NCBI GenBank assembly: GCA_030248295.1
Contig: JASANH010000183.1
Span: forward strand, 248,001-312,000
Length of the DNA stretch: 64,000 nucleotides
Source: Mesodorylaimus sp. YZB2_4
Lineage: Eukaryota > Nematoda > Enoplea > Dorylaimida > Dorylaimidae
Reading direction: 5' to 3'
The notes beneath the pieces are model-generated. The model saw only the letters and a program-made list of their open reading frames with translations. It did not search any database and was not told where the DNA came from. The position numbers and the translations under genes were made by a program. Below, piece after piece: positions 30,764 to 61,540 of the stretch (the stretch's first letter is position 1; each line of letters starts with the position of its first letter).

Positions 30764-33700
30764 ATGACAATGGTTCAAGTATTGCTCCGTAGTTTCTCTT
30801 ATATTTTTCTTATTCATGCAGTCGTTGCAAGCTGTAAGTCAAATTTTTTACAAGGAGGACCATGGACTGACCAAACGCCATTTCAGATCAAGCATCACGA
30901 CAAAGATCAGGGACCGCTAGCTCTCAGTTTCAAGCAAACCTTTTATGTTCAAACTGCAGAAATAATACTCTAGCGTGGAAAAGTCCAAAAACTAAAGCAC
31001 TTATCAAATGCCAATTATCAAAGATAGTCTGCAAATGCAAGTTGCAAAAATGTTTAAACAAGTCGGAATTGCAGTTTCAATATTGCAATGTCAGCAACTC
31101 TGATCAGCAAAATTTCGTCTATTGGACAAAATTATGCAAGAAAGTCGGCTGCACACAAATACAAGCTGCTGTCCCAGAGAGCGCTCAGTATCCTTTGTTC
31201 TTCCAAGGCTCTTTCAGACCCGGGTTTTACGTATGGAAAGGGACGAAGGTACAAATTCGGGAAACGACTACGATTAGACAAATTTGTGGTCTAATTGTGG
31301 GCAAAGATGAATATAAATTGATGTCATTTGGTGAAAAAACGTTTGCAAAGAAGAAGGCTACGAAAAAAATTCAATTTTCGAAACATATTACAAGCATTTC
31401 ATCAAGAAAACACTCCTTGTCTGGATCAAAGCAAAAAAATCACGAATTCAAATCACAAAGAAGCCCAGCTCGATCGAAGTTTATTCCAAAGCTCCATGCC
31501 ACCGAAAGCAATAAGCAGCAGAAAAAGGAGAACAACAAGCAAATGAAAAAATTCGATGCCAAAGGCACAAAAGCCTACACGGTAAAACGTGCATCCCAAA
31601 AGATTAATTCTAGACAGTCTGCGAAATCTAAAATAGTTTCATTCAAAGCTGCCAGAACAACAAAAGCTAAGAAAATTAACCCGCAGAAAAAAAACAAACC
31701 TGGAGAGAGACCTACCACACGGTCATCAAAGACTTCACGAAGGCCTGGTGGATTCAAAAAGAGCCAGAACCGATCAAAAACTCATTTGAGCTCAATTAAG
31801 GGCGATCGGAAATTTTCCACTATCAGAGGCACGACAAAGTTCAAGAAAGACAAGCTGAAGATTTCGACTAGGCAAAGGGCTAAAATGCGAGGAAATGTAA
31901 CAAATTCGGCAAAGAAATTTCAAACACGTCGTTTATTTCCTGGCTCTACTTTATCCAAATCTCATAGAAAAACGACGGGCCCTCATTCACGTTTTAAAGG
32001 AAAGGTAATAAGGTCTGCACTGGATGACTGGATCTGTGTGTGGGCACCAGGTGTGTCCTTGGCAGGAATCCTGGTGGTGCTCTTATTTTTAAACTTCAAT
32101 GGAAACCAACGCCTGTTTGTTGTGAAATAGGATGTTCTATGGTCACGCGCTGGAGGGTTCGGGCTGATCTTACAAGCGAGCGGTCCAAGGTCATTGACAG
32201 CCCAAGCCTGGTAGAAAGGCTTATTCCTGCAGAGTAGTGATCCCCTGATTCCGACAAAGCCTTCAGGCGTGTTTGCCGCGCCTCCCGAGGGTGCCTGCAA
32301 CTGTTTTGTGCGATGATACACGTCTGGCTGCTGGTCGAATGCACCCGATCCTAGATGCCTACGCTGGCGAGCAGCTCCACTTTCGGTAGGGTAGTAAAGA
32401 CCAAAGTTACACCAGGGGATCGTTTACGAGCACGACAATGCACGACAATGTTCTCACAGTCCTAGATTGTACCCACAGACCAACCAAGTACCCAACCTTT
32501 GGACTTCCAGTATGATCAATGGAAAACGACGACCGCAGAGGCCCCTTGAGAATACTGATCGAAGTACCTGGCGCGCCTGGCACGCCCCGCAGTTCTGCCG
32601 ATGGGGTGGATTACATGGAGGGATGGCTTCCCCCGAAGGGAGAGCGCTAATCTCACCCAGCGGACTGTTCCTATGCTGCCCTGGCTCCTCCCTACAGCCA
32701 CCTGCCCAGCCACACCCCAAAAATTCTAGGCCACCTCAAGCGACAAAATTCGCAATACGTCCAAACTCCCATCCGCATTTTGAATCCGTCAATCTCCAAT
32801 AAGCACTTATTAGGGAAGTTGCGTGTTTTTTCTTTAGAGCTCACCAAAAATTACCAATGTGACAAAATCTACGGCATCTGGACGACGAAAATGCAAAGGG
32901 AAAGGTAAGAACACTGTGTAAGTGGTCTCTGGGTGGACATATTTCAAATGCAGGTAATTTCAATTTTATTTTGTCCAACCACTGCATTTTGGCTCCAGCA
33001 TGACATACTCGCAGTACCGCTGGCAAATCGATGCGAGATTTTTTGTGTTCAGGCGGTCGACGATGCGATGATCCAAGTGATTTTGAATCGCCAGCAACTT
33101 GCAAGCCTTGTATGTATCACAGTAGTCCTTTATGGACAGGGTGTTGTACGGCTTCCATGGTTTCAAGAACAGTGCCTAAATCAATGTAGCTTCGGACGAG
33201 GACTTGATGCACAAAAGCTAATCAATGAAACTAAAAGTGCTAGGCAAATAAGCTGATTAGGCACAGATTCTGAATGATTTAGATTTTCTCTTCTTTCATT
33301 CAAACCAGGTATTTTCCTGTCAGTCGCGCTTTTTGCGTTAACCCTCACCTTAGAAATGAGTGTTCGTAATTTTAGTCGTGCCTCAGCTAAGGAACGTGAT
33401 TGCAGGGGGGGGGGGGCCGCAAACCAAAACGATTTTACTTGGGTGCTTCCGAAAATTCAAATTTCCCATGCCTTTTTTCAATCTAGCACGAAATCTCTGC
33501 GCTTATAGACCCGAATAATTTCCAGCTTCACTGCCTCGATTGCATGAACCAACCAAATACCGAATCATCCATCGAACATCGACGAGATTGCGAAATGACC
33601 GAATTACAATGCCGATGCGACTCGAGAGCGTGTGCCGCCAACAAACCAACAGTTTCGCTCACTTTCTGCAACATAAGCGATATCCCTAATAAAAATGACC

Positions 33701-36700
33701 TGAGTCAGGAGACCGAATATTGCACTAGAACTGGAAAGTGGTGCAAATATGTGCAAATATTGTACCCTGCCAAAGGCAATACCTACCTGCTCTTCTACAA
33801 CGGGCAACTGTATCCAGGTCGTATTCGAAATGCATCAGCCAATTCCAGTTTTTTAATCGAAACTAAGACGAGTCCAGGGGACTTTTGCAGATCCAAATCT
33901 GAAACGGGTTATGTTTTGAAGCCGAGTTTTAAAAGTAAGTAAGTCTGATCCACTCACCCCACCCCCTTTGCAGTGAAGTCAGACAAGTTTTTTTCTAGAG
34001 GCTCGCTATTGCAGCCCTCAAGCCTCTGCCAGTGGTGAGTGCAATCTATTCCCAAAAATCATTCCAATAAGGAGTCAGTGTTTTCTTTAATCAGCCACCA
34101 ATCTTTGATAATACAGTGATGTTTCCTCAAAAATGCAGAAAACGTTGATTTGAGAGTGATTTGTACCAATTGCAATGGTCTACTACATGATTTAGTCGAA
34201 ACGACATTCACAACAAAATGTAGCATGTTCAAGCTCAGTTGCGAGGGAGTGGGTAACGCGTGTATAGACACCATAAAAAAATACTTTTCCATTTGCAATG
34301 CCACTGAAAATGATGACTCGAATTGGAAAACGTTTTGCAAATCCAAGAATTGTCAATGGGTTCAAATAAAAACAGTGGACAACAGTTGGCACCTGATGTA
34401 CTATGACAGAGCAATTCATCCGGGACTGCCACGAAATTTGGCAATCAAAATGGAACAACCTGTGACTGAAAAAATATCCGTCCACGAATTTTGCGGAACA
34501 CAGAAAGATAGTAAGAGAAATTTTTGAATTTTCAAAAGCAAGCAAAGGTTTTTTTAGGAAAACTCGTGACAAAACTGGCTTGCACATATTGCGACGATGG
34601 TCGTGGTACGAATACCATTCGTGAATTTCAACCTGACCTTCCCGTCACTTGTCTCATGGTCACTCTGATATGCGCTTGCGCCAAGCCACCTTGTGCGAAG
34701 GGAGTTCGTGTATTCATTCCAGTTTGCGACATAAATTATTATTACGGCTCAAATGCCTCTGAGGTCTATTATAGATGGGGGCTGGCGTGCCTGCGAAAAG
34801 GATGCAATACGCCCCAGGTCTATAAGGACGTTGATAATCGATATTTGATCATGGAAGGTAACATCGGCTACGTTAAAATGGGAGGCGTCCGGACTGGGTC
34901 TGACGAGCGGAAGTATACGCCGGACTTGAATTTTGACGTCATTATGAGGCAAAAGGAAGCAAAGATTTGTCAATTTGTGGGTCAGAATTATACCCTAGTC
35001 AGTAAGTTTCCTCGCACACGACAACGCTTATTTGATCAGTCGGTCAGTCTGTCATATTTCAGGGGGGTCGCAAATGAATGAAGAGGAAACTGGCCCAGGT
35101 TTGCGTTTGAGCGCGAGTTTTTCCAACAATCAGCTGTGGCTTTCGAGGTTTTTAATGTCCTTTTACTGTAGGTTCGTCATGCAAACGTCCGCCCGCCTCC
35201 AGCGAATCTTCAACGCAATACCCACTACAGAATTTCCTTCGTCCTTTTATCGCGCTATCTCTGGCTGATAACCGACAACTACCAGTCGTTTGCTCCAATT
35301 GCCACGGCAACCTAACTCATGTGATACCACTGCAAAAGTCAGCCTGGTGCACGGTCACTGGACTCGAATGTCACTGCGTCAGTTCAGCAAAGAAGCATTT
35401 GACAGTCTGCGATGTGGAATATTTGACCGTAGTGACCACCAATCACCACATGATATTCGAGATGGAAGAATGGCATCGCGGATGTCTGGAAAGGGGCTGC
35501 ACATTTTTCCAGATTAAAAATTACAATACCGAATTGTTTTTGATTTATCATAACAAATTGTTATATCCGGGGGTGGTTAAAAATGGTTCAGCCCGATTGA
35601 TGTTTCCTGTCACGTCACCGATGACCATAGATACTTACTGCAGAGGACTGGAAATGGAAGAAATGCTAGCGGGTAACCAAAGTGAGTGAATGTCTCAAAA
35701 TGCTTAACCCATAAACTTGACGTTATACATAGCGTACATAACACAGCAGGAAGCCTAACAGTTATTACACAGGAGAAAACGTTTTAGGCGCCCCGACTGC
35801 TGATCAAATGAATCCTGTCAGTAAGTAGCAGTTAGCTTTTCCTAAAGCTTAAAAGTTGTCACATAAACTAAATTTCAGCTGATAATGAAACAACTGCCGG
35901 AAATATAGGACCAAGTAAGTACATATAATGCATTACACTACATTTGCAGTCAGCCGCCGCCGATAATTTTCGCACGACACCGCAACACGTTTCCTTTACG
36001 GCTTGGATTTTTGCAGTGGCCACGCACTAAAAAGTCGAGCAGACTTGGGAGACCTAAGCTACACTACTGGCCGAAATTATGGATCTACCCCTCAGCATTT
36101 AGACTTTTGTTGCTTAAATTTCTATAAATTCACCCAGTATTGTAACTACAGTAGTCCAAGTAGAGCCCTCAACTTGCACCTGAGAAACTTTTCTAAATTC
36201 GCTTTTTGAGTGCGAGAATATGTACAGTAGGGGGCACTACGTGTCTTGTGCATGAAAGATATTAATAATAAATAAAACTGGGTTTGAAATCTGGCATTTC
36301 CTAAGTATTTGTTTGAAGCAGACTCCTCTACATTGTAGTTATCTATCATTCCCTCTGGTACAAGAAGTTACATACCTTACACCAGCCTGCGGACTGAGGC
36401 TACAGGGTACCCGCGCTAATCGATGTCAAAGTAGGTATTTTGTTTTTGAAACACCCGGTACATGTGTATGTCAAGACCACAAATACTGTACATCTCTGTT
36501 AATCTTGTTAGGGAGCGCAATTACTGGACACTGTAATTTTCAAAATGCTGTAAATAGGCAGAAATCACTGATGGGTTAGGCAGGGGTATCTCAAAAACTA
36601 GTTGTTCCATGATCAAAGTCAGTGCTAATCCTGGTGAAGCGCCGCGTAACACGTGTAAGATAAAGTTTTGTGACTTAGGTACCGCAGACTTCACCATGGC

Positions 36701-39657
36701 ATTTTGCACTTTCTGCAATAACGACTCATTTTCTGTCAACTATACTAATCCACTCCAAACATTACCATGCAATATTCGACGGCTTCCCTGCGGTTGTGCT
36801 GGGAAAAGGTCGTGCATCAGGCAGTTTCCAGTTTGCGATTTGACGAGCGAGACGGAAAACAATGTTCGCAACTGGCTTGGTTCGTGTGATATACATTGCA
36901 AATACGCTCAAGTGATCAAAGGCAATGATTTACACGTGATCTATTTCAATGGCCTCATGCATCCCGGTCGAGTGCACGCGGCTGGACTGGATTTTGTTAT
37001 AACAACGGCGATCAGTCGAGAGGAATTTTGCCAAAATCAAGACACTTTTGAAGTTACCAGTCCTCCTTATGAAGGTATTTGATCGACTCTAAGAAACAGG
37101 CTCGACTCTGATATCCTGCGTTTTGAAATCTTTAAGACACGATCAGAACAGAACTAATTTGCTCTAATTGCGATGGCGATCCATGGAAAGCAAAAGAGCA
37201 GTCAAATACCAATATCGTGATCCAGTGCAAAGTTGTGAACATTTTGTGCCGATGCGAATCTTGTGCTAATTTCGCTAGAAAATTACATCCTCTTTGCATC
37301 CCAGCTTGCAGCATTAGCAACTTCAGCGAGTCGACCTACGACGAATGGAGACAGATGTGCCGAAGTATGAACTGCGAAAATCCACAGATCATTTTCAACT
37401 TGGACGCATATTTACTAGCATGGAATCAACCATTTGAAATCTTACCAGGCTTAGTGCGGGTTCGCTTATACGATCTACAATACAGGCTTGATAGAGCAAA
37501 GACCCACCAGAAATTATGCAACGACCTGAGTCTCGAGCATCATCGACTCGGGAATTATCCTTCGAACCCACCAGCGAAAGAAGGTGAGTTGGAAGAGGAT
37601 TCTGGTAGGCATAAGGCTCCCATTTCTGGGATTGTGAACTTGAGCACTTAAGAATGGTAGGACCCCTAAAAATTACTTTCCAGCAAAAGACTCACAACAG
37701 CGGAGACTAGGGAATGCACACACAAAGGGTAACTGAATATTTTAATAATTTCAAATTCTTACTGTAAAACAATCGCCAGTGATCATCAAACAAACTTTTC
37801 TTTTCTTAAAGAAGCATCAGAGTAGCATCAGCTTGGTGTGTCTGCGAAAAGACACAGCGTGCAGTACCTACTGTATTGTTGTGATAATAAAAATGAACGC
37901 CCCGAAGACAGTAATGCCTTGAAATCATCGAAGGTAACAGCTTCGTTCAAGCAGGCCAAAATGAACTCATATATTGCACCATAAATGCTGATTAGGTCCC
38001 CCAAAGCCCACTACGGGTAATTGGGGAGGGGATAGGTGAGGGGTGGGATTTGACAGCATAATGTATGCTGTGACCCAGTCCACAGACATACGGTTATGAT
38101 GGTTTTATATGAGGAGAGCAGACGGGAAGGTACAATGCTTACTGAGAGAATGTAATGAGAGAGAGTTCCGCGCTGGTTTTAGATGCAAATCATAAGGTTT
38201 TTTATGCGAAATTGTGGCAATTTTAATTACCCCTCATAGTTCCCTTGACTCATTCGCATTTGAAGTAATAATTTTCCCGTATATTATGTATATAAGTATT
38301 ATCAAGCTACCTACCACAGGTGACCGCTTGAGCACCTTAAGTGGGTCCTAGCAATAAGCCGTGTATGACCTACTTTAAAATTCCACTCTGCTGTCGGTAT
38401 GTGCATTAACTGTGTGTGTGCGTAGTCGGTAAATTCACGGATGCTTGAAACAATATATGATCCGACAGACCTTTATTATAGTTTCGTGATAAGGATCTGC
38501 AAAACTACATCGGCATCGAAACAATACAGACCTGGGATTTATTTGGAAAAAGTACACATTACTTGATTGGGACCTTGTAGAATTCAAAAAAGGAGTGATG
38601 TAGATATAAAACAAATTATGGTAGATAATATGTACTGTATGTGTATAAAAATTTCAGGCGATATTTGTGGCGTGTTCGACTGGTTCTCAGGTGCGTGAGT
38701 AGAGTACATGAAATCCTGTCGTTTTACTGACTTCAAGATTTTCAAATGTTTAATTTTCAATTACGAAACATGAAAAAACAAAAGTGTGTGACTACTGTAT
38801 GTATACACTGATGTGTACTGCATACATCGACACACGCTTTTGTTTTAGTGTTGTAATCTGCATACTGTACTCATACACTTGTATCCCAGCTGGTTATTGC
38901 AAAGGCCCAGGTACGGGGTTTTACTGTTGCTGTTTATCCCTCATGCTTTACCGCACAAGGCAGAGCGAAACACGGGCTTACCGTTTCGGAGCCCCTTTCT
39001 GAGATCAACACTAGCTAATCTCAGTTTTGTAAAAACTATTAATTAACGAAATAAGTCAGTAAAAACTGTACCTTCCTGAATTTCAGTTTTTGTTCTTGCC
39101 TGTAAGTAAGGAGGCTAACAAGTGTATAAATACGGTATCAAATTTTTTCATAAGCATGACAAACTTGATCAATAACTTACCAATACTGATCGATATGCTT
39201 CTGTGTAGGAAGTCGCGAAATAAGATTTTCGTATGTGGCCTGCACAAAGAATCGTGAGTTCCCAGTTCGTGGAACGGCGCCGCCTGGTGTGGCTGGGACT
39301 AATCCGATAGAAGTTATGCGTAGATACTCCAAGTACCCGGCCTACAGGTATTTATGCAATCCACCAAGCAACATCAAACGGGAATGTGACTCGAAATATT
39401 ATCGCATCAGTGGCTATTGGCTGGAGAAGAAGCATAGCCGATACACTTTCGCTGTGACATTCCAAGAGTATGATCGAGCGCTGACGTTCTGTCAGGCTTT
39501 ACCGGGCAACTATCTGTATGCCCAGCCAGTCAGTAGTAGTCTCGATAGACTGTGGTACTTGTTCGAGCTTGTCGGAAGCTCGACTGAGATGCCTGGATTT
39601 CGTACCCATTTTAGCGCAGTTTTTTCGGAACCATCGTATCCGACGTTGCGAGTTTAA
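30764..39657 (+). CDS. Modular secreted cysteine-rich protein, 17 exons, seven repeated domains
   Basis: Exons: 30764-30833, 30935-32004, 32838-32904, 33509-33934, 33999-34034, 34139-34510, 34558-35001, 35063-35098, 35172-35681, 35788-35820, 35879-35914, 36679-37074, 37137-37583, 37684-37728, 38658-38690, 38890-38910, 39209-39657. The sum is 4491 nt, 1496 aa, in frame throughout. All introns are phase 1 except intron 2 (phase 0). Exon 1 is a signal peptide. Exons 2, 4, 6, 7, 9, 12 and 13 each encode one domain of about 120 residues: C-x2-C near the start, then C, L-x-C-x-C, C, W-x2-C-x4-C-x3-Q-[IV], an aromatic strand ending [YH]-P-G, and FC. Domain 4 lacks a clear PG and domain 7 has LPG. 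A Lys/Arg/Ser-rich tail (about residues 150-400) follows domain 1. Exons 5, 8, 10, 11 and 14-16 are 21-45 nt linkers. The C-terminal exon is a different Tyr- and Cys-containing module. No transmembrane segment is seen. The family and function are unknown to me. Confidence 0.75.
32200..32755 (+). repeat. Intron-2 repeat, copy in unit A
   Basis: From AGCCCAAGCCTGGTAGAAAGG to TTCTAGGCCACCTCAAG this segment resembles the reverse complement of 61853-62487 and is carried along in unit B at 47409-47965. Shared blocks include GGCTTATTCCTGCAGAGTA, GACGACCGCAGA and GCCTTGGCTCCTCCC-like words. It has no long conserved frame, so it is more likely a dispersed element than an exon. The ends are not defined by target duplications that I can see. 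Confidence 0.6.
37750..39208 (+). other. Introns 14-16, containing two micro-exons
   Basis: This stretch contains only two proposed micro-exons. Exon 15 (33 nt, encoding GDICGVFDWFSG across its boundaries) is conserved base for base in unit B. Exon 16 (21 nt, AGYCKGP) has a TGC to TAC change and a GT to GC donor change in unit B. The rest is AT-rich intron with (TA/TG)-rich words and no other open frames of note. Confidence 0.5.
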
Positions 39658-40126
39658 GCTTTACCTTATAGACTAAAGCGTGTAATTTAAAAACGTTTGA
39701 ATATAGGATCTAATTTCTGTCACCGAATCATATGAATAATATAATTTATGTTGTATCTTTGGAGGACTGACTTTGGAAGTAAATTTATTGCTCTCGGCGC
39801 TGACGAGTCAGCAGGTGTGAAGGTGTGAAAATAAGAGAGCCTGTTACACCTCCGTAATAGTTCATTGGGCAGGCTCCAGGGTGTTACAAGTACAGGGTTG
39901 GCAATAAAGCCCCGCGGATTTTCAACTCAAATAATTCGCGCGTTTTTAAGAATTTGAAAGCGATACTTGAGCACAGCATATTATGCAGAGCGGTATTTCG
40001 TTTTTTGACAAAATTTAAAAAAATTTCACTCTGTCCGAAATTTTCAAATTTTGCGCGTTTATCGACTTGAAACCTACATCAAAACGGATTTTGTCTGCTG
40101 AAAGGAGCAAACAGCCCGATGATTAA

Positions 40127-42490: not shown

Positions 42491-43674
42491 TTTAGGGGCC
42501 GTTCAAAAACCACGTCGTATGCAAATCAGCAATTTTTGACCCCCCATCCCCCCCTATCGTATTTTGTCGTTTTGCGCCTGACCCCCCTTTTCGACGTCGT
42601 ACAAGCCAATACCCCCCTTAACTTTATAGAGGGGAGTAAAGACATACTTCAAAAAATGTCATGAGCATCGGCGCACTTCACCCCGCCGCTGCTCATGTCC
42701 ATATTTCGTGCGAGCCCACATGTTCCCATCCTCAGATTGGTATACATTCCAACAATGTTTTTCGGAATGTTTACAGAAGAGACATTTAGTAATTTGATTT
42801 TAGTAACAATTTGGTGGAGGTAAAATGTGCTGATGGTTTCACAGCTTGACTCTACGCCTTTAGTTCCCAAAGATTGTCTGTCAATTTTTGAAATGCACTC
42901 GTCGAAAATCGAATAGCAGTATAAAAGCAAAACGAATAACTCTTTATGATAGAGCACATTTTTCTTTATCAAACTTAAACTTTTTTGCTTTAAAAAATGT
43001 TTTGGACTGAAGCCCGTTTTCGCCTCCAGCTGGCCAGCAGTCAAACCTTCTAAGCGAGGCTATGCGGGAACCAGCTCACACACCAGCTTCCCTCTGCGCG
43101 TCCCCACTAGGAGCACCTCCACACGAGGACATCATCGATTGGACACCGACTTTCTTGGACGATGGCGGGCGGGCTTCGAGCCTTGCCCCTTAGACAGTCT
43201 CCTCGTTTAGCTTCCGTCTCTCCACTCGTAGCACCTCTATGTTACTGGCTGAGTCCCTCACGCCCTGGTGTGCAAGGTCAGAGAGCGTCATGGTTCGCAA
43301 ACAGACCTCCATCGCCAGGGATTGAACCCAGGGTGAGTCCAGCCGCGCTACTGACTAATATGGAGAGACAAATGCTAAAACCGCGCCGCACCAAGGCGGC
43401 CGCTTCCTATAACAAACTGAGTCTGGCCAATGCACATTATTGTAATCAAAACTATCATGAACAGGTGACCCGAAAGTGGCGGACCTGTGCTCATCTGACC
43501 GCAATTAGGCTCTAGCATAAGAGTTCGAAAAGGAGGAAAAACGCTGGAATACCTAGTGTAAAAACGATGTCGTTTTGCCTTTGACCAACCTCTCCCCTTG
43601 TCGTTTTTTGTCGTTTTGGTGCTGACCCCGCCCTCCCCCCTGGCGTACGACGTCGTATTTGAACGGCCCCTTTA
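42491..43674. mobile_element. TIR element with TTTA target duplication and nested SINE
   Basis: The element 42495-43670 (1176 bp) has inverted ends: left GGGGCCGTTCAAAAACCACG, and right, reverse-complemented, GGGGCCGTTCAAATACGACG. TTTA flanks both sides (42491-42494, 43671-43674). Unit A has a single TTTA at the same place (30348-30351), a clean empty site. If the ends are trimmed to GGG, the duplication would be CTTTAG. The subterminal regions contain GTCGTTTTG words and C-rich runs. There is no transposase; a SINE lies within it. The superfamily is not assigned. Confidence 0.85.
43020..43410 (-). mobile_element. tRNA-derived SINE nested in the TIR element
   Basis: On the minus strand the head carries an A-box-like TTGGTGCGGCGCGG near 43396-43383 and a B box GGGTTCAATCCC at about 43329-43318. 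The body words TTTGCGAACCATGACG, GGTGCTCCTAGTGGGGA and CTTAGAAGGTTTGACTGCTG follow. It matches the SINE at 10770-11125 over most of its length. It must have arrived in the TIR element before or after that element entered unit B; unit A has neither. Confidence 0.65.
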
Positions 43675-44518
43675 GTATTATAAATTCATGATTCTTCACG
43701 TCAATGGAGCTTCTCTCGCTCTACATGCTATAGCTTGCAGACTCCTGTAAGTCATCAGGAGTCACTGCATCAGTCCTTCCTTCTCATCACTTTAGGATCT
43801 ATGCATTGCAGTCGCAGCATCTATTCAAACACGCGTGCTGGTTTTCGTTCAGCGAAATGCGTCAGTTTGGCATAAAATCGTTCCGGCTGGTAAAGTCTCG
43901 TCGTAAGCTCTCCATTCTTCACTTTCCTCTTGAGACGAAAAATTCCACCTTAGCGCATATTTTATGGTTTGCTTTGGATTCCCAGTGTACAATTAAAACA
44001 TACAGTAACTTGCACTGGCGCACGTGTCTTCTAAATATATCTGGGCATTTTCTCCTTTCTCGGATGTTGCAAAACCAGGCGGGCGTGAAATGGCAATGGT
44101 TCAAGCATTGCTTCGTAGTTTCTCTTATATTTTCCTAATGCATGCAGTCGTTGCAAGCTGTAAGTCAAATTTTTTACAAGGAGGACCATGGACTGACCAA
44201 ACGCCATTTCAGATCAAGCATCACGACAAAGCTCAGGGACCGCTAGCTCTCAGTTTCAAGCAAACCTTTTATGTTCAAACTGCAGAAATAATACTCTAGC
44301 GTGGAAAAGTCCAAAAACTAAAGCACTTATCAAATGCCAATTATCAAAGATAGTCTGCAAATGCAAGTTGCAAAAATGTTCAAAGAAGTCGGAATTGCAG
44401 TTTCAATATTGCAATGTCAGCAACTCTGATCAGCAAAATTTCGTCTATTGGACAAAATTATGCAAGAAAGTCGGCTGCACACAAATACAAGCTGCTGTCC
44501 CAGAGAGCGCCCAGTATC

Positions 44519-46398
44519 AGCAGGCACGGTAGTGCCTGCTTAGACCAGCCAACCAGACGCCTAATGCTAAAGGACCATTTTCACCGACTAATAACTCGAG
44601 AACGATTTGACGAGAATTTTTGATTTTTTGCACACATAGCAGAATCGGCCGAATCTACAATCGTGCCAATTTTTATCAAAATCCGTCCGGCTATTGTCGA
44701 ATTCCAGGATAGGCGATTTCTTGTTCAGGGGGGAGAAGACGAGGAGGAGGAGGAGGAGGAGGAGGAGGATAAACATCAGCCTAGAGCAACAACCAGAGGT
44801 CGTACAGGTGTAAATATTAGTTTTTCTGAAAGCTTGCATCTTCAGAATCTGCCTTCTGGCATTCGTTTTTTGAACGCTTTAGTTTCGAAAAGGTTATTCC
44901 AGAAAATAATCACTTTTTTGGCTTTTTCAACCCGTCGCTTGTCGAGTACTCAACAGATTTTGATAAAAATTGACGTGGCAGCGGATCTGACCTATCTTGC
45001 AAAGCGTGCGAAAAATAAACTTTTTTGGTGTAATCATTCTTGAGTTATTGACTACCGAAAGTAGCTGGCTCTGGTGCTTCTGTTTTTTTCATTTTCGGCG
45101 CGCAGCTTAGAAACATCAACTGAACGGGTTGAGGTGCAGCGCTATTGATTGGCTAGGCTCACTTAGCGCGCTTTCACGAAGATGGGCTGAGGAAAATAGG
45201 AGCTAAAAATAACTTATAAAACTTGCGGATCCTAAATATTCAGTTTCAGCTTCTGATGGAATACTCTGAGGATATAGAACTTAAGACCACTCGAGCATGA
45301 GCTAGTCCTTACGAATTAGAAATCCTTACGAATAAGCTTTATTGTTTTTCATGCCGCCTGTATATCTGAGTATATATGCAAAAAAATGCGCATTTCATGA
45401 GCAGGCACGGGTGAGAGTTTCTGACTATGAAATGGTCGATCGATCTGTAGGCGGTCTTTACGAGTAATTTCATGGGCGCGGGTTAACGTTCCGTTCTATG
45501 TTTCTGTTTTGAGAGGTTTGGAAGAAGGTGTATGACAGTCAAGTCGCTCAATTCTCTCAGTTGTAGGAACAAGTGTTTTGGGCCAAACTAGTTTCTAGCA
45601 AAAAACGAAAAACGGTTTTATTATTTCCAAAAAAGTCTGTTATGACAGACTCAAAACTTTTAGGCCAGCCTATGCACACAGTGGAACCAGGGCTTAGGAT
45701 GGCTGGTCTACTCGGCCACAAGAAAAAGGGAAAGTGCCCCAACAGGCAGTGCACACACAGCTTGTAATTGCTCGCACACATATACTGTATGTATGTATGC
45801 ATTGATATGTCAGCATCCAAGCCACAAAGCTTGTGTTCGGTGCATGTACTGCTGCTGTTCAGACAGGCTCCCCAAAGGCAGCTGTACTGTTCCACACAAT
45901 TAACCTGCACACTGCATGCTAAAGCTGTAGCGCTGGGAGCAAAGTGATATTGCTTATCGTTACATGCCTAAGCCTCGATGAACACTGTAAAATCTTTCCC
46001 CTTCTTCCAACTTTATGTTCATGCTCATGGTTTATCATATCAGTAATGACACACTCTAGGATAAAAGGGCACATGACACAAAATGATTTACCTGGCCGCG
46101 AGTCGAACACTCCCTAGTAATGATACGAGCAAGCGCTACCACGCATAGCCCGAGAGTTAGACACTCCTAGCCCACTTTGAGGACCACGAGCACAGGATCG
46201 TGTGGCCCTCTACCAGGATCAGTCGTCCTGTTGATATTCATGCAGAAAAAGCAGCTTCTGCTCAGACATTTTTCTTAAACCGTGGTTGCGCTTAGCAGTG
46301 GCCGAGTAGACCAGCCATTCTAAGCCCTGGTTTCACTCTGTGCATTGGCTGGTCTAAAAGTTTTGAGTCTGTCATAACAGACTTTTTTGGAAATAATC
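44519..46398. mobile_element. Composite 1.88-kb insertion in exon 2 of unit B
   Basis: The unit A exon reads CAGTATCCTTTG; unit B reads CAGTATC, 1.88 kb, then ATCCTTTG, so ATC is duplicated or shared at the junctions. Inside are at least two structures. Inverted arms at about 44585-44700 and 44935-45055 (AATAACTCGAGAACGATT against AATAACTCAAGAATGATT, each with CAATTTTTATCAAAATC) enclose a GAG repeat. A 770-bp foldback element occupies the right part. A short hairpin GCAGGCACGGTAGTGCCTGC marks the left junction. No transposase was seen. Confidence 0.7.
45622..46395. mobile_element. 770-bp foldback element with TA target duplication
   Basis: The arms of about 90 bp at 45624-45715 and 46300-46393 are inverted: TTTCCAAAAAAGTCTGTTAT on the left and its complement on the right. 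They share CCAGGGCTTAG/CTAAGCCCTGG and TGGTCTACTCGGCCAC blocks. TA flanks both ends (45622-45623, 46394-46395), as in Tc1/mariner-type insertions. No transposase frame is present. It is nested in the larger insertion that breaks exon 2. Confidence 0.75.
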
Positions 46399-47408
46399 CT
46401 TTGTTCTTCCAAGGCTCTTTCAGACCCGGGTTTTACGTATGGAAAGGGACGAAGGTACAAATTCGGGAAACGACTACGATTAGACAAATTTGTGGTCTAA
46501 TTGTGAGCAAAGATGAATATAAATTGATGTCATTTGGTGAAAAAACGTTTGCAAAAAAGAACGCTACGAAAAAAAATCAATTTTCGAAACATATTACAAG
46601 CATTTCGTCAAGAAAACACTCCTTGTCTAGATCAAAGAAAAAAAATCACGAATTCAAATCACAAAGAAGCCAACCTCGATCGAAGTTTATTCCAAAGCTC
46701 CATGCCACCAAAAGCAATAAGCAGCAGAAAAAGGATAACAACAAGCAAATGAAAAAATTCGATGCCAAAGGCACAAAAGCCTACACGGTAAAACGTGCAT
46801 CCCAAAAGATTAATTCTAGACAGTCTGCGAAATCTAAAATAGTTCCATTCAAAGCTGCCAGAACAACAAAAGCTGAGAAAATTAACCCGCAGAAAAAAAA
46901 CAAACCTGGAGAGAGACCTACCACACGGTCATCAAAGACTTCACGAAGGCCTGGTGGATTCAAAAAGAGCCAGAACCGATCAAAAACTCATTTGAGCTCA
47001 ATTAAGGGCGATCGGAAATTTTCCACTATCAGAGGCACGACAAAGTTCAAGAAAGACAAGCTGAAGATTTCGACTAGGCAAAGGGCTAAAATGCGAGGAA
47101 ATGTAACAAATTCGGCAAAGAAATTTCAAACACGTCGTTTATTTCCTGGCTCTACTTTATCCAAATCTCATAGAAAAACGACGGGCCCTCATTCACGTTT
47201 TAAAGGAAAGGTAATAAGGTCTGCACTGGATGACTGGATCTGTGTGTGGGCACCAGGTGTGTCCTTGGCAGGAATCCTGGTGGTGCTCTTTTTTTTTAAA
47301 CTTCAATGGAAACCAACGCCTGTTTGTTGCGAAATAGAATGTTCTATGGTCACGCGCTGGAGGGTTCGGGCTGATCTTACAAGCGAGCGGTCCAAGGTCA
47401 TTGACAGC

Positions 47409-47965
47409 CCAAGCCTGGTAGAAAGGCTTATTCCTGCAGAGTAGTGATCCCCTGATTCCGACAAAGCCTTCAGGCGTGTTTGCCGCGCCTCCCAAGGGTG
47501 CCTGCAACTGTTTTGTGCGATGATACACGTCTGGCTGCTGGTCGAATGCACCCGATCCTAGATGCCTACGCTGGCGAGCAGCTCCACTTTCGGTAGGGTA
47601 GTAAAGACCAAAGTTACACCAGGGGATCGTTGACGAGCACGACAATGCACGACAATGTTCTCACAGTCCTAGATTGTACCCACAGACCAACCAAGTACCC
47701 AACCTTTGGACTTCCAGTATGATCAATGGAAAACGACGACCGCAGAGGCCCCTTGAGAATACTGATCGAAGTACCTGGCGCGCCTGGCACGCCCCGCAGT
47801 TCTGCCGATGGGGTGGATTACATGGAGGGATGGCTTCCCCCGAAGGGAGAGCGCTAATCTCACCCAGCGGACTGTTCCTATGCTGCCCTGGCTCCTACCT
47901 ACAGCCACCTGCCCAGCCACACCCCAAAAATTCTAGGCCACCTCGAGCGACAAAATTCGCAATAC
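47409..47965 (+). repeat. Intron-2 repeat, copy in unit B
   Basis: Nearly identical to 32200-32755 because it was duplicated with the unit, and divergently similar to the reverse complement of 61853-62487. No coding content was recognised. Confidence 0.6.
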
Positions 47966-50900
47966 GTCCAAACTCCCATCCGCATTTTGGGTCCGAGTCA
48001 ATCTCCAATAAGCACTTATTAGGGAAGTTGCGTGTTTTTTCTTTAGAGCTCACCTAAAATTACCAATTTTACAAAATCTACGGCATCTGGACGACGAAAA
48101 TGCAAAGGGAAAGGTAAGAACACTGTGTAAGTGGTCTCTGGGTGGACATATTTCAAATGCAGGTAATTTCAATTTTATTTTGTCCAACCACTGCATTTTG
48201 GCTCCAGCATGACATACTCGCAGTACCGCTGGCAAATCGATGCGAGATTTTTTGTGTTCAGGCGGTCGACGATGCGATGATCCAAGTGATTTTGAATCGC
48301 CAGCAACTTGCAAGCCTTGTATGTATCACAGTAGTCCTTAATGGACCGGGTGTTGTACGGCTTCCATGGTTTCAAGAACAGTGCCTAAATCAATGTAGCT
48401 TGGGACGAGGACTTGATGCACAAAAGCTAATCAATGAAACTAAAAGTGCTAGGCAAATAAGCTGATTAGGCACAGATTCTGAATGATTTAGATTTTCTCT
48501 TCTTTCATTCAAACCAGGTATTTTCCTGTCAGTCGCGCTTTTTGCGTTAACCCTCACCTTAGAAATGAGTGTTCGTAATTTTAGTCGTGCCTCAGCTAAG
48601 GAACGTGATTGCAGGGGGGGGGGGGGGCCGCAAACCAAAACGATTTTACTTGGGTGCTTCCGGAAATTCAAATTTCCCATGCCTCTTTTCAATCTAGCAC
48701 GAAATCTCTGCGCTTATAGACCCGAATAATTTCCAGCTTCACTGCCTCGATTGCATGAACCAACCAAATACCGAATCATCCATCGAACATCGACGAGATT
48801 GCGAAATGACCGAATTACAATGCCGATGCGACTCGAGAGCGTGTGCCGCCAACAAACCAACAGTTTCGCTCACTTTCTGCAACATAAGCGATATCCCTAA
48901 TAAAAATGACCTGAGTCAGGAGACCGAATATTGCACTAGAACTGGAAAGTGGTGCAAATATGTGCAAATATTGTACCCTGCCAAAGGCAATACCTACCTG
49001 CTCTTCTACAACGGGCAACTGTATCCAGGTCGTATTCGAAATGCATCAGCCAATTCCAGTTTTTTAATCGAAACTAAGACGAGTCCAGGGGACTTTTGCA
49101 GATCCAAATCTGAAACGGGTTATGTTTTGAAGCCGAGTTTTAAAAGTAAGTAAGTCTGATCCACTCACCCCACCCCCTTTGCAGTGAAGTCAGACAAGTT
49201 TTTTTTAGAGGCTCGCTATTGCAGCCCTCAAGCCTCTGCCAGTGGTGAGTGCAATCTATTCCCAAAAATCATTCCAATAAGGAGTCAGTGTTTTGCTTTA
49301 ATCAGCCACCAATCTTTGATAATACAGTGATGTTTCCTCAAAAATGCAGAAAACGTTGATTTGAGAGTGATTTGTACCAATTGCAATGGTCTACTACATG
49401 ATTTAGTCGAAACGACATTCACAACAAAATGTAGCATGTTCAAGCTCAGTTGCGAGGGAGTGGGTAACGCGTGTATAGACACCATAAAAAAATACTTTTC
49501 CATTTGCAATGCCACTGAAAATGATGACTCGAATTGGAAAACGTTTTGCAAATCCAAGAATTGTCAATGGGTTCAAATAAAAACAGTGGACAACAGTTGG
49601 CACCTGATGTACTATGACAGAGCAATTCATCCGGGACTGCCACGAAATTTGGCAATCAAAATGGAACAACCTGTGACTGAAAAAATATCCGTCCACGAAT
49701 TTTGCGGAACACAGAAAGATAGTAAGAGAAATTTTTGAATTTTCAAAAGCAAGCAAAGGTTTTTTTAGGAAAACTCGTGACAAAACTGGCTTGCACATAT
49801 TGCGACGATGGTCGTGGTACGAATACCATTCGTGAATTTCAACCTGACCTTCCCGTCACTTGTCTCATGGTCACTCTGATATGCGCTTGCGCCAAGCCAC
49901 CTTGTGCGAAGGGAGTTCGTGTATTCATTCCAGTTTGCGACATAAATTATTATTACGGCTCAAATGCCTCTGAGGTCTATTATAGATGGGGGCTGGCGTG
50001 CCTGCGAAAAGGATGCAATACGCCCCAGGTCTATAAGGACGTTGATAATCGATATTTGATCATGGAAGGTAACATCGGCTACGTTAAAATGGGAGGCGTC
50101 CGGACTGGGTCTGACGAGCGGAAGTATACGCCGGACTTGAATTTTGACGTCATTATGAGGCAAAAGGAAGCAAAGATTTGTCAATTTGTGGGTCAGAATT
50201 ATACCCTAGTCAGTAAGTTTCCTCGCACACGACAACGCTTACTTGATCAGTCGACCAGTCTGTCATATTTCAGGGGGGTCGCAAATGAATGAAGAGGAAA
50301 CTGGCCCAGGTTTGCGTTTGAGCACGAGTTTTTCCAACAATCAGCTGTGGCTTTCAAGGTTTTTAATGTCCTTTTACTGTAGGTTCGTCATGCAAACGTC
50401 CGCCCGCCTCCAGCGAATCTTCAACGCAATACCCACTACAGAATTTCCTTCGTCCTTTTATCGCGCTATCTCTGGCTGATAACCGACAACTACCAGTCGT
50501 TTGCTCCAATTGCCACGGCAACCTAACTCATGTGATACTACTGCAAAAGTCAGCCTGGTGCACGGTCACTGGACTCGAATGTCACTGCGTCAGTTCAGCA
50601 AAGAAGCATTTGACAGTCTGCGATGTGGAATATTTGACCGTAGTGACCACCAATCACCACATGATATTCGAGATGGAAGAATGGCATCGCGGATGTCTGG
50701 AAAGGGGCTGCACATTTTTCCAGATTAAAAATTACAATACCGAATTGTTTTTGATTTATCACAACAAATTGTTATATCCGGGGGTGGTTAAAAATGGTTC
50801 AGCCCGATTGATGTTTCCTGTCACGTCACCGATGACCATGGACACTTACTGCAGAGGACTGGAAATGGAAGAAATGCTAGCGGGTAACCAAAGTAAGTGA

Positions 50901-53778
50901 ATGTCTCAAAATGCTTAACCCATAAACTTGACGTTATACATAGCGTACATAACACAGCAGGAAGCCTAACAGTTATTACACAGGAGAAAACGTTTTAGGC
51001 GCCCCGACTGCTGATCAAATGAATCCTGTCAGTAAGTAGCAGTTAGCTTCTTCTATAGCATAATATTTCCCACTAAAACATAATTTTAGCTGATAATGGA
51101 ACAACTGCCGAAAATATAGGACCCAGTAAGTACTGCATTACATTACACGTGCAATAAGCAATTTCCAAGGACCGTCATCTGGGGCTATTTCGGACCAGTG
51201 AGGCAATTTCGGATAATAGTTGCGTGTAGTCTCCGATAGAACCTACTGTACACAGAGAGCGTCACCGCTGAGCTTAGTCGTTTTATATACCCTACCATTT
51301 TGTAGCTAAAAGTCTATTCTATTAAACCCGAGCGCTGTGCGCCGCCTAAAAAGCAGGTACAGTAAGAAAACACAATTATTCTCAACCTATAAAAATTTCA
51401 GGGGATTTTCTGGTCGCGAGCTTTTTCTCGCGTTTGGGCTACGGATGAATGTGCTGAATGAAATTAGGTTTTTGACAGGTTTTCCTCCTAAGTTGCTTGG
51501 CTTCCTTGTCTTTTTGGCCTACCTTCTCCAGAGAACCCTATGTCAATAATTTGAGAAGCAAACTTTTTATTTCCCAAGGGGGGCCCCTTTGCAATCAAGA
51601 ATTTTCACTTTCGTAATTAGGAGGTGAAGGTCAACACAAAAGGTGAAGGTGCTTTTTTCTACAAAGTGCGAGTGCTGAATTTAATTATTACACTGTTTTT
51701 TAATATCCCGGCATCAATTCACGAGAGTGCACTTCGTATAGCATAGGTCATCCGAAAAAGCCCCATCCTTGGGTAATTTCGGACGCTACCAGTTTTTTAC
51801 AAAAAACTTCTTCTTGGTGCAGTCTAAGAGATTTTTCACGCAATATTTCGATTCTTCAACATCTTGGCATTCTACCGATACATTAGATAACAGGTTTAAT
51901 GGAATTTTTTGTAATATATTTAGTAGCAATTCCAACGCAGTAGGGAGAAAAAGTCCGAAAGAGGCCCGGATGACGGGACCGCATATGCTGTAATTTTCGC
52001 ACAAACTGCAATCTGTTTCGCTGTTGCGCTTGGATTTTTGCAGCGGCCGCGCACTAAAAAGCTGGGAAGACTTGGAAGAGCTAAGCTATACTACTACTGA
52101 CTTGCACCTGAGAAACTTTTTCTAAATTCGCTTTTTGAGTGCGAGAATATGTACAGTAGGGGGCACTACGTGTCTTGTGCATGGAAGATATTAATAATAA
52201 ATAAAACTGGGTTTGAAATCTGGCATTTCCTAAGTATTTGTTTGAAGCAGACTCCTCTGCATTGTAGTTATTTATTGTTCCCTCTGGTACAAGAAGTTAC
52301 ATACATACCTTACACCAGCCTGCGGACTGAGGCTACAGGGTCAGCTTCTTGTCCCATGCTTACGCCACAAATACATGTGTATGTCAAGACCACAAATACT
52401 GTACATCTCTGTTAACCTAATTAGGGAGCGCAATTACTGGACACTGTAATTTTCAAAATGCTGTAAATAGGCAGAAATCACTGATGGGTTAGGCAGGGGT
52501 ATCTCAAAAACTAGTTGTTCCATGATCGAAGTTAGTGCTAATCCTGGTGAAGCGCTGCGTAACACGTGTAATATAAAATTTTGTGACTTAGGTACCGCAG
52601 ACTTCACCATGGCATTTTGCACTTTCTGCAATAACGACTCATTTTCTGTCAACTATACTAATCCATTTCAAACATTACCATGCATTATTCGACAGCTTTT
52701 CTGCAATTGTGTTGGTAAAAAGTCGTGCATCTGGCAGTTTCCAGTTTGCGATTTGACAAGCGAGAAGGCAAAGGATGTTCGCGACTGGCTTGGTCTGTGT
52801 TATCCGCATTGCAAGTATGCTCAAGTGATAAAAGGTAATGACTTACACGTGATCTATTTCGATGGTCTAATGCATCCTGGTCGAGTGCACGCGGCTGGAC
52901 TGGATTTTGAAATAACAGCGGCGACAAATCGAGAGGAATTTTGCCTAAATCAAGACACGTTTAAAGTCACCAGTCCTCCTTATGAAGGTATCTAATCGGC
53001 TTCAACAAGCTGGTTTATCTTTTATCCTGAGTTTTGAAATTTTTAAGACACGATCAGAACAGAACTAATTTGCTCTAATTGCGATGGCGACCCATGGAAA
53101 ACAAAAGGGCTGTCAAACAACAATATCGTGATCCAGTGCAAAGTTGTGAATCTTTTGTGCCGATGCGAATCTTGTTTTCATTTCGCTAGAAAGTTACAGC
53201 CGCTATGTATCCCAGCTTGCAGCATTAGCAATTTCAGCGAGTCGACCTACAATGAATGGAGACAGATGTGCCGAAGCATGAACTGCGAAAATCCACAAAT
53301 CAATCACAACCTAGACACATATTTACTAGCATGGAATCAACCATTTCAAATCTTACCAGGCTTAGTGCGGGTTCGTTTATACGATCTACAATACAGGCTT
53401 GATAGAGCAAAGAGCCACCAGAATTTATGCGACGACTTGCGTCTCGAGCATCATCGACTTGGGAATTATCCTTCCAATCCACCAGCGAAAGAAGGTAGGT
53501 GGGAAAAGAATTCTAATAGGCATAAGGCCACCACTTTTGCAACTGCGAGCGCATCAGAGATTGCTAGGCTACCTTTTGCCAGAGATTGCTAGGCTACCTA
53601 GCAAAAAATTACCTTCAAGCGAAAGACTCACAAAAACGAAGAGGGGGACACGGACCGAGGGTCACTGGGTAAATAATTTTAAATTGTAAAACTATTAGTT
53701 TGCCAGTTTGTGAGTCATCACCATGTACTATTTCGGTTTTCTAAAAAGCATCAGAGTAGCATCAGCTTGGCGCGTTTC

Positions 53779-55097
53779 CAGGTCCGACAATGGGTTCACA
53801 GTTCGACCCAAACCCAACCCAAAAATTTTGAAGTCAAACCCAACCCAAACCCGTTTTTTAAAAGTCAAACGCAACCCATTCGCAAGTGAACCCAAATGCA
53901 ACCCATAGAAACCCAAATTTTTTAAAAACTCGACTTATACCCAAAAACACTTTTATTCAGTGAAGTATGTATATTATCAGTGTGACGCACATTTTTCCAT
54001 CATCATCAGCATCATGTGCCATCATTCTTCACTGAGCCTCCGGAGGGAAAGCAATGTTGCATGGCGGCTTTATTCGAATGTCTTCCTTCAGAGAGAAGTT
54101 GTGAGGATAGTGGATGAATCTCCCCCGGCCTCCCCAGGGCACCAGGTAGCACATAACTCTGAAAGTTGAACTTACGATGAATACATTTTTACGCAGTTGA
54201 TTGCGTCGTGCCCGCTCGCATCTTCATCTACAGTACTTTCAAAAAGATTTCCAGGGATACCGGAAGCAACTTATCTAGCATGAGCAAATCTGACTGCACC
54301 TCCACATTCGATTTTTGACCTCCTTCAAAAACAACCAAAGACCTTAGAAGTGTCCTGCACTCGACTGTACGTATCACAACGACCGTTTCCTTTTTGAGCA
54401 ACAAGTTTAAATAACATGACCCCACCTCCAGCTGGCCCCAGCTGAGGGAACATGTCCATCGGGCATTCAAATTTTACAATCCTTGTTCCTCAAACAGGGA
54501 GATGCTGGTCTTCCGCCATCATATTCACCCGACAATAGAGCTCACCACGGTGTCTAACGTTAGTTCACTCGCGTACGTAGGGTTTCAGGCTCGTACGGGG
54601 CCAACAAAAAAATTGCATAAATATGCTATAATTTAGAGCTCAAGGATGAGCACCGAAGGCACAATCCGAGGACGCGAAGGGCCCCAGAAGAGAATTTAGA
54701 CCCGACTGACCTATTCTCTGACTTTTAGTTGACAAGAGATCAGATCAGCTCGATATCATCTGCTGACAGATGATTTCTCAGTCCTGTCACAATGGGACTG
54801 GCATGTCTAATAGGACTAGCTGGGGGCACTGGGTAAGTTTTTTGAAGCACCAGGGTCTGTCGATTCGAAACCAACGGGAATAATAACTATCGCAGTGGCT
54901 TCAATACGCTGTTGGGTCATCCACATGGTCATTCTGACCAAAGTGGAAAAGTGGTTTTTGTGTTGGGCTCGTAAAAAGGTCAACCTCCACAACCCAAAAC
55001 CACCCTGTCTGCAAGCCCGACCCAACCCAACCCAAAAACCCAAAAAAATGGGTTAGTTTTGGGTTGGGTTGGGGTTTTGGACCCAATGTCGGACCTG
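53779..55097. mobile_element. 1.3-kb TIR element with AACCC-rich subterminal repeats
   Basis: The inverted ends are CAGGTCCGACAATGGGTTC (left) and, reverse-complemented, CAGGTCCGACATTGGGTCC (right). Inside each end lie many AACCC/GGGTT words in opposite orientation. The site corresponds to an uninterrupted stretch in unit A near 37840, so this is an insertion. Flanks GCGTTTC and GCGTCTG are only partly alike, so the target duplication is uncertain. No transposase frame is visible; a hAT-type MITE is a reasonable guess. Confidence 0.7.
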
Positions 55098-55193
55098 GCG
55101 TCTGCGAAAAGATGCAGCGCGTAATCGAATGTATGTAGTTTAGGGTAGGTGCTGTGTTGTAGCTTCGCAAAAGAATAAACGCCGCTAATACAG

Positions 55194-55338
55194 TAAAGCT
55201 AGAAGTATAGTTCGATGCGATGCGTCAAATAAGCTTGCGATGCGACACTTTTGGGTCAACTGACAATGTAAAAAGGTGCCTAAAACGTCGCATCGCACGC
55301 TTATTTGACGCATCGCATCGAACTATACTTTGGGCTTA
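55194..55338. mobile_element. GATGCGATGCG foldback MITE, copy 2
   Basis: Full-length relative of the element at 20485-20627, with the same arms (AAGTATAGTTCGATGCGATG and complement) and a spacer in the opposite orientation (TGACAATGTAAAAAGGTGCC). It lies in the 3' introns of the unit B gene and is absent from unit A. Confidence 0.8.
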
Positions 55339-56769
55339 AAGCGTTGAAATCGTCAAAGTAACAACTTCGAGCCAGGCCAAAATTTATGTGCATAACAATT
55401 TCAGGCGATATTTGTGGCGTGTTCGACTGGTTCTCAGGTACGTATGTACAGTATGAGCAGCAAAGGTAATCCTGTCAGTTTACTGATTCAAAGTTTTTGA
55501 AACAGCGCATCGTGTTATTAATTTAAATTTTCGATTCCCAATATCTTTAGAGAAAAACCATTGTACAGTATACGCTGATGTATACTAAATACCTTGATTC
55601 ACGCTTTTGCTTTATTTTGTAATCAGCATACTGTGCTCATACACTTAGATCCCAGCGAATCATTACAAAGGCCTAGGCACAGGGTTTTACTGTTACTGTT
55701 TATTCCTCACCCTTTATAGCGCACTAGCTAGCCAGAAACAGTGGCGAAACGGGGGCATATCATTTCGGTGTCCATTCCTGAGATCAGCACCAGGTAATCT
55801 GGTTTTGTAAAAACTACCAAATAACCGTATAAAAGACAGTAAAAACCCTGCCAATTTTTCTAAAGTTCTGTTTTTCTTCATAATAAAAGTAATAGGAGGC
55901 TCCATGCAAATTTTCGTTTGGCGCGCGTCACTTATGATGAATATAAAACACTAAGGGACCTACGTATAGATAAGGAAGGCTCATACGTGAAGCAGAGTTT
56001 CAACGGGCGCTGCACCGACCCATGGCTAATGACTTAGGGGGTCTGTATGTGAGGAGGCTAACAAGTGTAGAAATACGGTACCTATCAAATTTTCAATGAG
56101 CATGACACACTTGGTCAATTATTTGCCAATACTGATCGATGTGCTTTTGTGCAGGAAGTCGCGAAATAAGATCTTCGTATGTGGCCTGCACAAAGAATCC
56201 TGATTTTTTGTTCCCAGTTCGTGGGACACTGCCGCCTGGTGTGGCTGGGACTAATCCGATAGAAGTAATGCGTAGATACTCCAAGTACCCGGCCTACAGG
56301 TATTTATGCAATCCACCAAGCAACATTAAACGGGAATGTGACTCGAAATATTATCGCATCAGTGGCTATTGGCTGGAGAAGAAGCATAGCCGATACACTT
56401 TCGCTGTGACATTCCAAGAGTATGATCGAGCGCTGACGTTCTGTCAGGCTTTACCGGGCAACTATCTGTATGCCCAGCCAGTCAGTAGTAGTCTCGATAG
56501 ACTGTGGTACTTGTTCGAGCTTGTCGGAAGCTCGACTGAGATGCCTGGATTTCGTACCCATTTTAGCGCAGGCTTTTCGGAACCATCGTATCCATCACTG
56601 CGAGTTTAATCTTTACTATAAACTGAAGAAACTGTAACTTCAAAAAACGTTTGAACGAGATCTACTTTCTGTCACCGAATCATATAAATGACATAATTTA
56701 TGTTGTATATGTCCGTCTATTATATGTCCAACTCCTTGGTGAAACAGGGAAGGAAATTCACGTTTTTGA

Positions 56770-61000: not shown

Positions 61001-61540
61001 CGGCTTTTTTGTCTTTCGACCAATCACTGAAGTTGACTGGTGCTTCTTGAAGTTGTTCTTCAGCTGCCGGCAATACTCTGCATTTGATATTTTTGACTTT
61101 ATCACAAGCTTTGTCCGTCCCTTTTTCGATCGATCGTAAAACGAAAAAGTACCTGGATACAGGGAGTTCCTAAAGACTATCGGATATTGGCTAGAATTGG
61201 TTTTCTCAGTTGCTTGGACGTTCCGGCATCTATCGCATATTTTAATTATTTCTTCCGCAATTATGCCTTTAGCTTTTATTATTTCGCAATATTGCAATGT
61301 CTGTCTCTGGATATTTTTGTTGCTTAAACTTTCGCAAACCAGCTGAGAAAATTTGCACTCAACTGTAAATCGAGGCTCTGCATATTTCGCAGTATTACAT
61401 TGAGTACAGACGATAAACATTGATGAAAAAGCTGAACAAAAGCGGGAATACACAAATGGGCAAACCCAGGCCGATTCCATCGCCTTACCTTTCGATGCTG
61501 ACAAAAATATTGTCAAATATGTATGAGCTATAAGTCCCAT
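58057..61540 (-). CDS. Three-domain secreted cysteine-rich protein, six exons
   Basis: Exons: 61540-61489, 61431-60700, 60639-60595, 59641-59198, 59136-58996, 58703-58057. Every junction is phase 1. The sum is 2061 nt, 686 aa. Exon 1 gives MGLIAHTYLTIFLSASK, a signal peptide. Exon 2 holds domain 1 (VCTQC, then VECKFSQLVC, then CDRCRNVQ, then NSLYPG, then YC) and a Lys/Arg/Ser/Thr-rich tail like that of the unit A gene. Exon 3 is a 45-nt linker, RKCDDPGSKNSCH, comparable to ARYCSPQASAS of unit A. Exon 4 is domain 2 (VCSAC, then WTDSCKRVGCQNTQ, then WLYPG). Exon 5 is a Thr-rich linker with ten consecutive Thr codons, a likely O-glycosylated spacer. Exon 6 is domain 3, with longer spacing between cysteines (LVCQCDS, CKYPQ, LVYPG). 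No membrane segment is seen. It is an inverted, diverged paralogue of the 30.8-39.7 kb gene; the function is unknown. Confidence 0.75.
58729..58819. mobile_element. GATGCGATGCG MITE, truncated copy 3
   Basis: It carries the spacer (TTTACATTGTTAGTTGACCC) and the right arm (CGCATCGCATCGAACTATAC) of the family found at 20485 and 55194; the left arm is gone. It lies in intron 5 of the minus-strand cysteine-rich gene, close to the acceptor of the last exon. Confidence 0.75.
59816..59847. promoter_or_regulatory. 32-bp palindrome around a TGACGTCA (CRE-like) core
   Basis: CTGATTGGTCAATGACGTCA and its continuation TTGACTAATCAG form a near-perfect palindrome centred on TGACGTCA, the consensus of CREB/ATF factors, with ATTGG (an inverted CCAAT) in the left arm. 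It lies in intron 3 of the minus-strand cysteine-rich gene. Whether it is a regulatory site or chance is not known. Confidence 0.3.

Follow-up and report, generated by a model that had tools for sequence, protein, structure and literature searches.

An apparently undescribed ten-cysteine domain, encoded by exons flanked by phase 1 introns, in a tandemly expanded gene family of Mesodorylaimus sp. YZB2_4

Introduction

What kind of protein is encoded by the long chain of exons at 30764-39657 (plus strand) of a 64-kb stretch of the Mesodorylaimus sp. YZB2_4 genome, and does the cysteine-rich domain repeated in it belong to any described family? The stretch, referred to as the window, covers positions 248,001 to 312,000 of contig JASANH010000183.1 (termed C23) in the assembly GCA_030248295.1, which comprises 145 Mb on 1,067 contigs. 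We found that the exon chain, termed gene A, encodes repeated copies of a module some 120 residues long whose consensus contains ten cysteines, and that this module is a real entity is very probable. With moderate confidence, we interpret it as an undescribed, exon-encoded extracellular module of a tandemly expanded family, whose members carry a polybasic segment and are probably matrix or adhesive proteins. The term "undescribed" is used relative to Pfam, NCBIfam, and the PDB, and both it and "lineage-specific" are provisional.

Results

Gene A and its exons

The exons of gene A were assembled manually on the basis of open frames and splice sites, with introns having GT..AG ends. The resulting model contains 17 exons and encodes a protein of 1,521 aa (amino acids), its frame being open to the stop at 39657. 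Phase 1 was found in 15 of the 16 introns, and the remaining intron, located inside the basic segment, is in phase 0. An earlier sequence-only reading of the window had proposed a 17-exon model closing in frame with consistent phases and yielding 1,496 aa; the exon chain and its phases were recovered here, whereas the protein length was not, a difference that another choice of a few exon borders would explain. The same reading had described seven of the exons as variants of one domain, and all seven carry the domain with its ten consensus cysteines. The exons of gene A are as follows.

30764..30833, plus strand: exon 1, start and hydrophobic leader (candidate signal peptide, by eye)
30887..32004, plus strand: exon 2, domain 1, then a long K/R/S/T-rich segment (232 residues, isoelectric point 11.8)
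32838..32904, plus strand: exon 3, basic segment with RRKCKGK end
33053..33109, plus strand: exon 4, CDDP linker, with paralogs on other contigs
33509..33934, plus strand: exon 5, domain 2, with the acceptor selected by phase
33999..34034, plus strand: exon 6, short linker
34139..34510, plus strand: exon 7, domain 3 (first AlphaFold model)
34558..35001, plus strand: exon 8, domain 4
35063..35098, plus strand: exon 9, short linker
35172..35681, plus strand: exon 10, domain 5
35773..35820, plus strand: exon 11, short linker
35879..35914, plus strand: exon 12, short linker
36679..37074, plus strand: exon 13, domain 6
37137..37583, plus strand: exon 14, domain 7
38658..38690, plus strand: exon 15, mini-exon containing CGVFDWF, matched weakly in paralogs (E 0.03-0.07)
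38890..38910, plus strand: exon 16, 21 bases, the least secure exon
39209..39657, plus strand: exon 17, C-terminal domain, belonging to another dispersed family

The basic segment is set apart from the remainder of the protein, for which the isoelectric point is 8.7. Judging from the leader, the proteins of the gene A family are probably secreted.

Conserved features and predicted fold of the domain

To define the domain, 57 sequences were aligned, these being 60 near-complete copies minus three identical or nearly identical to others. Both cysteines of the C-x2-C motif are present in 55 of the 57 domains, five further cysteines and one glycine in all of them, another cysteine in 56, and two more in 50 each. 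The invariant glycine and a glutamine (54/57) are the sole near-invariant positions apart from cysteines. A tryptophan occurs in 30 domains, a proline preceding the invariant glycine in 31, and the residue before the closing cysteine is phenylalanine in 29 and tyrosine in 12. Individual domains contain ten (36 domains), eleven (10), nine (6) or eight (5) cysteines, and they are otherwise highly divergent, with 14-34% identity to domain 3.

The pattern of cysteine loss suggests two disulfide bonds (domain 3 numbering). Cys 34 and Cys 39 are jointly absent in five of the nine domains that lack either one, and Cys 6 and Cys 64 are each absent once, in one and the same domain; Cys 9 alone is absent in one other domain. 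From these losses, a C34-C39 bond is proposed and, from the single case, a C6-C64 bond is weakly suggested. AlphaFold models of two of the 57 domains, both built from the same alignment, had pLDDT (predicted local distance difference test) values of 88.4 and 92.2, and these two models provide the predicted fold of the domain.

The domain family across the assembly

When the seven gene A domains were searched against the assembly, at least 50 matches at E<=0.1 were obtained; they lie on seven contigs, and 51 of the 70 candidates were scored. Sixteen assembly stretches and the window, comprising 2,839 open frames of at least 40 residues, were then searched iteratively, which gave 76 domain matches at a per-domain E<=0.001 on seven contigs, that is, six besides C23. 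Two domains, on C73 and C451, are apparently counted twice among the 76, since a locus edge or a frame change splits them. As a control, a profile was built from 43 aligned domains located outside the window, thus excluding the ten domains of the sequence-only reading. At E<0.01 this profile had 17 matches among the window frames, seven in gene A, seven in a tandem copy of it (copy 2), and three in a minus-strand gene, and 0 matches among the same frames either reversed or shuffled. Its weakest true match was the last domain of the minus-strand gene (E 4.1e-06), and it missed the 3' piece of the interrupted copy 2 domain (E 0.3). The three domain copies that had been reported in the minus-strand gene were thus all found by a profile made outside the window; copy 2 and the family members on six further contigs had not been noted in that reading.

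The minus-strand gene (58057-61540) consists of six exons encoding 686 aa, all five of its introns are in phase 1, and its frame closes. It starts in the same order as gene A, with a leader, a domain, a basic tail, and a CDDP linker, after which come another domain, a linker rich in threonine, and a final domain that is divergent.

61489..61540, minus strand: exon 1, start and leader
60700..61431, minus strand: exon 2, domain and basic segment
60595..60639, minus strand: exon 3, CDDP linker
59198..59641, minus strand: exon 4, domain
58996..59136, minus strand: exon 5, threonine-rich linker
58057..58703, minus strand: exon 6, longer divergent domain and stop (E 4.1e-06)

Elements of this layout recur at other loci, where the first domain is extended by a long K/R-rich tail (257 residues to the frame end on C73, 287 on C451, and 295 on C73) and the CDDP linker is present. 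The C-terminal domain was also detected there (E 8e-10 on C15 and 5e-6 on C451), and the mini-exon CG[VI]F.W gave weak matches (E 0.03 and 0.07), with one further instance noted by eye on C232. In a tree of the 57 domains, domain 2 of C23 groups with domains from C15, C73, and C451 (support 97/97), and domains 3 and 6 each group with C15 (100/93 and 99/98, respectively). From this positional grouping across contigs it follows that part of the domain array, at least, predates the gene duplications. On C73, identical domain exons were observed about 11.6 kb apart (L045:3650-4030 and L046:5217-5597), and they reflect another recent tandem duplication among the family members.

Extracellular modules such as EGF, CCP, and fibronectin III belong to the class 1-1 modules spread by exon shuffling, in which the domain exon lies between phase 1 introns. 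This arrangement was found in gene A and in the minus-strand gene. Among the best-scoring splice sites around the 60 near-complete domains, near-identical copies counted, phase 1 was observed for 43 of 46 donors, 14 domains having no donor above the threshold, and for 48 of 60 acceptors. The domain therefore resembles the class 1-1 modules in its phase 1 flanks, its tandem repetition, its predicted disulfide-rich character, and its occurrence in leader-bearing proteins, whereas, unlike them, it has no match at E<=0.001 among PDB folds and none of significance in Pfam.

A tandem copy of gene A

43669..56708, plus strand: tandem copy of the whole of gene A (copy 2), exon 2 interrupted

The identity between gene A and copy 2 is 96.7% over 30346-31192, 98.4% over 31190-35954, and 85.4% over 36172-37836, and in the 3' part it is 72% over 38638-39095 and 91% over 39100-39756. 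The unequal identity along the copies, from 98% to 72%, indicates parts with different histories, perhaps involving gene conversion. All 1,521 codons of gene A could be aligned to copy 2, and none is turned into a stop. Synonymous change exceeds nonsynonymous change, with proportions of differing sites of 0.054 (pS) and 0.022 (pN), and a ratio of nonsynonymous to synonymous substitution (dN/dS) of 0.40 overall and from 0.24 to 0.76 in six regions. As dN/dS is below 1 in all six, there is no sign of positive selection acting on whole exons. The exon lengths of copy 2 are the same as those of gene A except in exon 2 (about 1,880 bases longer) and the last exon (6 bases longer), every acceptor is AG, and the donors are GT except that of exon 16, which is GC. 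Base differences between the copies amount to 43/396 in exon 13, 37/447 in exon 14, and 14/449 in exon 17, and in the four introns between 37075 and 39208 they affect 19 to 28% of the aligned bases. The joining of the gene A exons is thus supported by the phases, by the paralogous layout, and by the substitution pattern between the two copies.

The copy 2 insert (44516-46395, about 1,880 bases) contains in its 3' part 100-base inverted ends (45620-45719 and 46298-46397, 95/100 alike) resembling those of a small DNA transposon. Intron 2 harbors, in gene A and copy 2 alike, a dispersed repeat (32152-32746) with at least 54 DNA matches, 40 of the 668 candidates having been scored; of these 54, 51 lie elsewhere in the assembly, mostly with an identity of 73-79%.

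Searches for known families and folds

The 57 domains were compared singly to Pfam, and none scored above a curated cut-off (best E 0.012), each family being matched by at most two of the 57. Likewise, ten window segments had no significant match in Pfam (best E 0.11), and the ten domains had none in NCBIfam (best E 0.041). Among PDB sequences, the ten-sequence profile had no match and the 57-domain profile no significant one (best E 0.04), and a Foldseek search of PDB folds with the two AlphaFold models gave none at E<=0.001. These results, which include the fold prediction proposed as a check in the sequence-only reading, agree with its statement that the domain matches no named extracellular domain, within Pfam, NCBIfam, and the sequences and folds of the PDB. 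Protein searches were also negative: of the 2,689 candidates for the whole gene A model, none reached E<=10, and of the 419 for the domain alignment, none reached E<=1. A control search with the neighboring intradiol dioxygenase gave 20 matches among 27 candidates.

The C-terminal domain

The C-terminal domain (39208-39654) represents a second dispersed family, with 14 matches at E<=0.1 that are spread over 11 contigs; a search with one of its relatives gave 16 matches, including six tandem copies on C24. It had no Pfam match above the cut-off. Against PDB sequences, the exon alone retrieved an antibody chain (E 0.57), which was rejected, and a six-sequence profile retrieved KLRG1 and SRCL chains, which are C-type lectin-like (E 0.055-0.26). 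The likeness to the C-type lectin-like domain is weak, not significant, and restricted to this exon, and the CTLD model was absent from the Pfam matches of six C-terminal members at E<=1. When the C-terminal family was aligned to the ten-cysteine domain with hhalign, the helix, cysteines, glutamine, and Pro-Gly fell in register (probability 5, E 0.0074 for this single comparison). As a lead only, the C-terminal domain might be a decayed form of the ten-cysteine domain.

Discussion

In our interpretation, the domain, whose exons have phase 1 introns on both sides, is a real one that occurs several times over in the products of a multigene family arranged in tandem clusters. The shared layout comprises a leader, the first domain, a long polybasic segment, and the CDDP linker, after which come more domains and, in certain genes, the C-terminal domain. 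The polybasic segment may anchor the protein to polyanions, and the domains may present binding surfaces that diverge while the disulfide scaffold stays fixed. A role as a multivalent matrix or adhesive protein is plausible at less than even confidence. Still more tentatively, the module may have a fold unseen in solved structures and may itself be private to the lineage, multiplied by 1-1 exon duplication into polybasic, many-headed secreted proteins; the C-terminal domain would then be a decayed version of that fold, dispersed over the genome independently.

Several observations weigh against the interpretation as an undescribed extracellular module of probable matrix proteins, and they are considered here with the alternative explanations. 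The names returned by the dioxygenase control search were bacterial or functional only, and therefore the negative protein searches say little about animals. This favors the possibility that a description of the domain exists in the literature or in animal databases covering the lineage, its novelty being apparent only within the libraries searched. However, the Pfam of 2025 spans all life and had nothing above the cut-off, and no fitting domain was found in the titles and opening abstract lines of the literature surveyed. We regard a prior description as less likely than not.

A second alternative, which we consider doubtful, is that the domain is a remote, unrecognized member of a known fold, for instance that of the RNase A superfamily or of the netrin/TIMP-like modules with an OB fold. 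RNase 7 and RNase K6 account for four of the five PDB sequences that the 57-domain profile retrieved (E 0.04-0.065), and the spacing of some of their cysteines is similar to that of the domain; OB-fold proteins, as judged by title, appear only among low-ranking Foldseek matches (TM, template modeling, scores of at most 0.30 in three lists). The RNase match is not significant. The catalytic His and Lys residues are conserved in the RNase A superfamily, whereas no column of the 57 domains has more than 9 His or 12 Lys; membership (best E 0.04) was rejected because the domain family has no conserved His or Lys. No RNase A fold was present among the Foldseek or VIA matches listed for the models.

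It is comparably unlikely, in our view, that the family serves defense, reproduction or host interaction as a diverging recognition repertoire, rather than a structural matrix. The 14-34% identity to domain 3, the tandem clusters, and the mosaic age of the gene copies would fit such a role, but the dN/dS of 0.40 overall and its regional range give no indication of whole-exon positive selection. The highest regional value, 0.76, is found in exons 1-2 and counts against our interpretation. So do two features of the tree, in which 24 of the 52 inner branches are open and domains 1, 4, 5, and 7 have no supported cross-contig positional group.

The remaining points concern the exon models, which are predictions from the genomic sequence. 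For exon 5, the acceptor at 33509 was taken over that at 33487 because phase 1 fits 33509 alone, although an automatic splice-site scan favored 33487 (phase 0). Exon 16 differs from copy 2, with its GC donor, at 6 of 21 bases, and it is the least secure exon since this divergence matches that of an intron; the frame of gene A would survive its omission. Exon 2 of copy 2 is broken up by the insert, in which a stop lies near the edge. That the whole chain is an artefact, made of decayed pseudogene pieces or of exons not joined in one message, could draw on this stop and on the exon joins being predictions, but it is highly improbable given the closed frames, the phases, the substitution pattern, and the kept exon lengths and splice dinucleotides.

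An extracellular domain family matching neither a described family nor a solved fold would be a worthwhile target for structure determination, and this one is accompanied by 57 aligned sequences, a cysteine pattern, and two confident models. If the module is confined to one lineage, it would show how an animal group derived an extensive set of secreted proteins from a single new module.

Other features of the window

The intradiol dioxygenase gene used as a control lies at 6778-7441 on the minus strand, bears an intron, and matches Pfam Dioxygenase_C in two frames (E 2.2e-07 and 2.8e-05). Its best relative, with 64% identity, is located on a 975-base JGI contig. Clusters of intradiol dioxygenase genes are reported in tardigrade genomes (PMC5531438), and such genes are also reported in spider mites (PMC9167512). 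Between 12001 and 18000, the GC skew is -0.26 to -0.31 across 6 kb, unlike in the remaining window.
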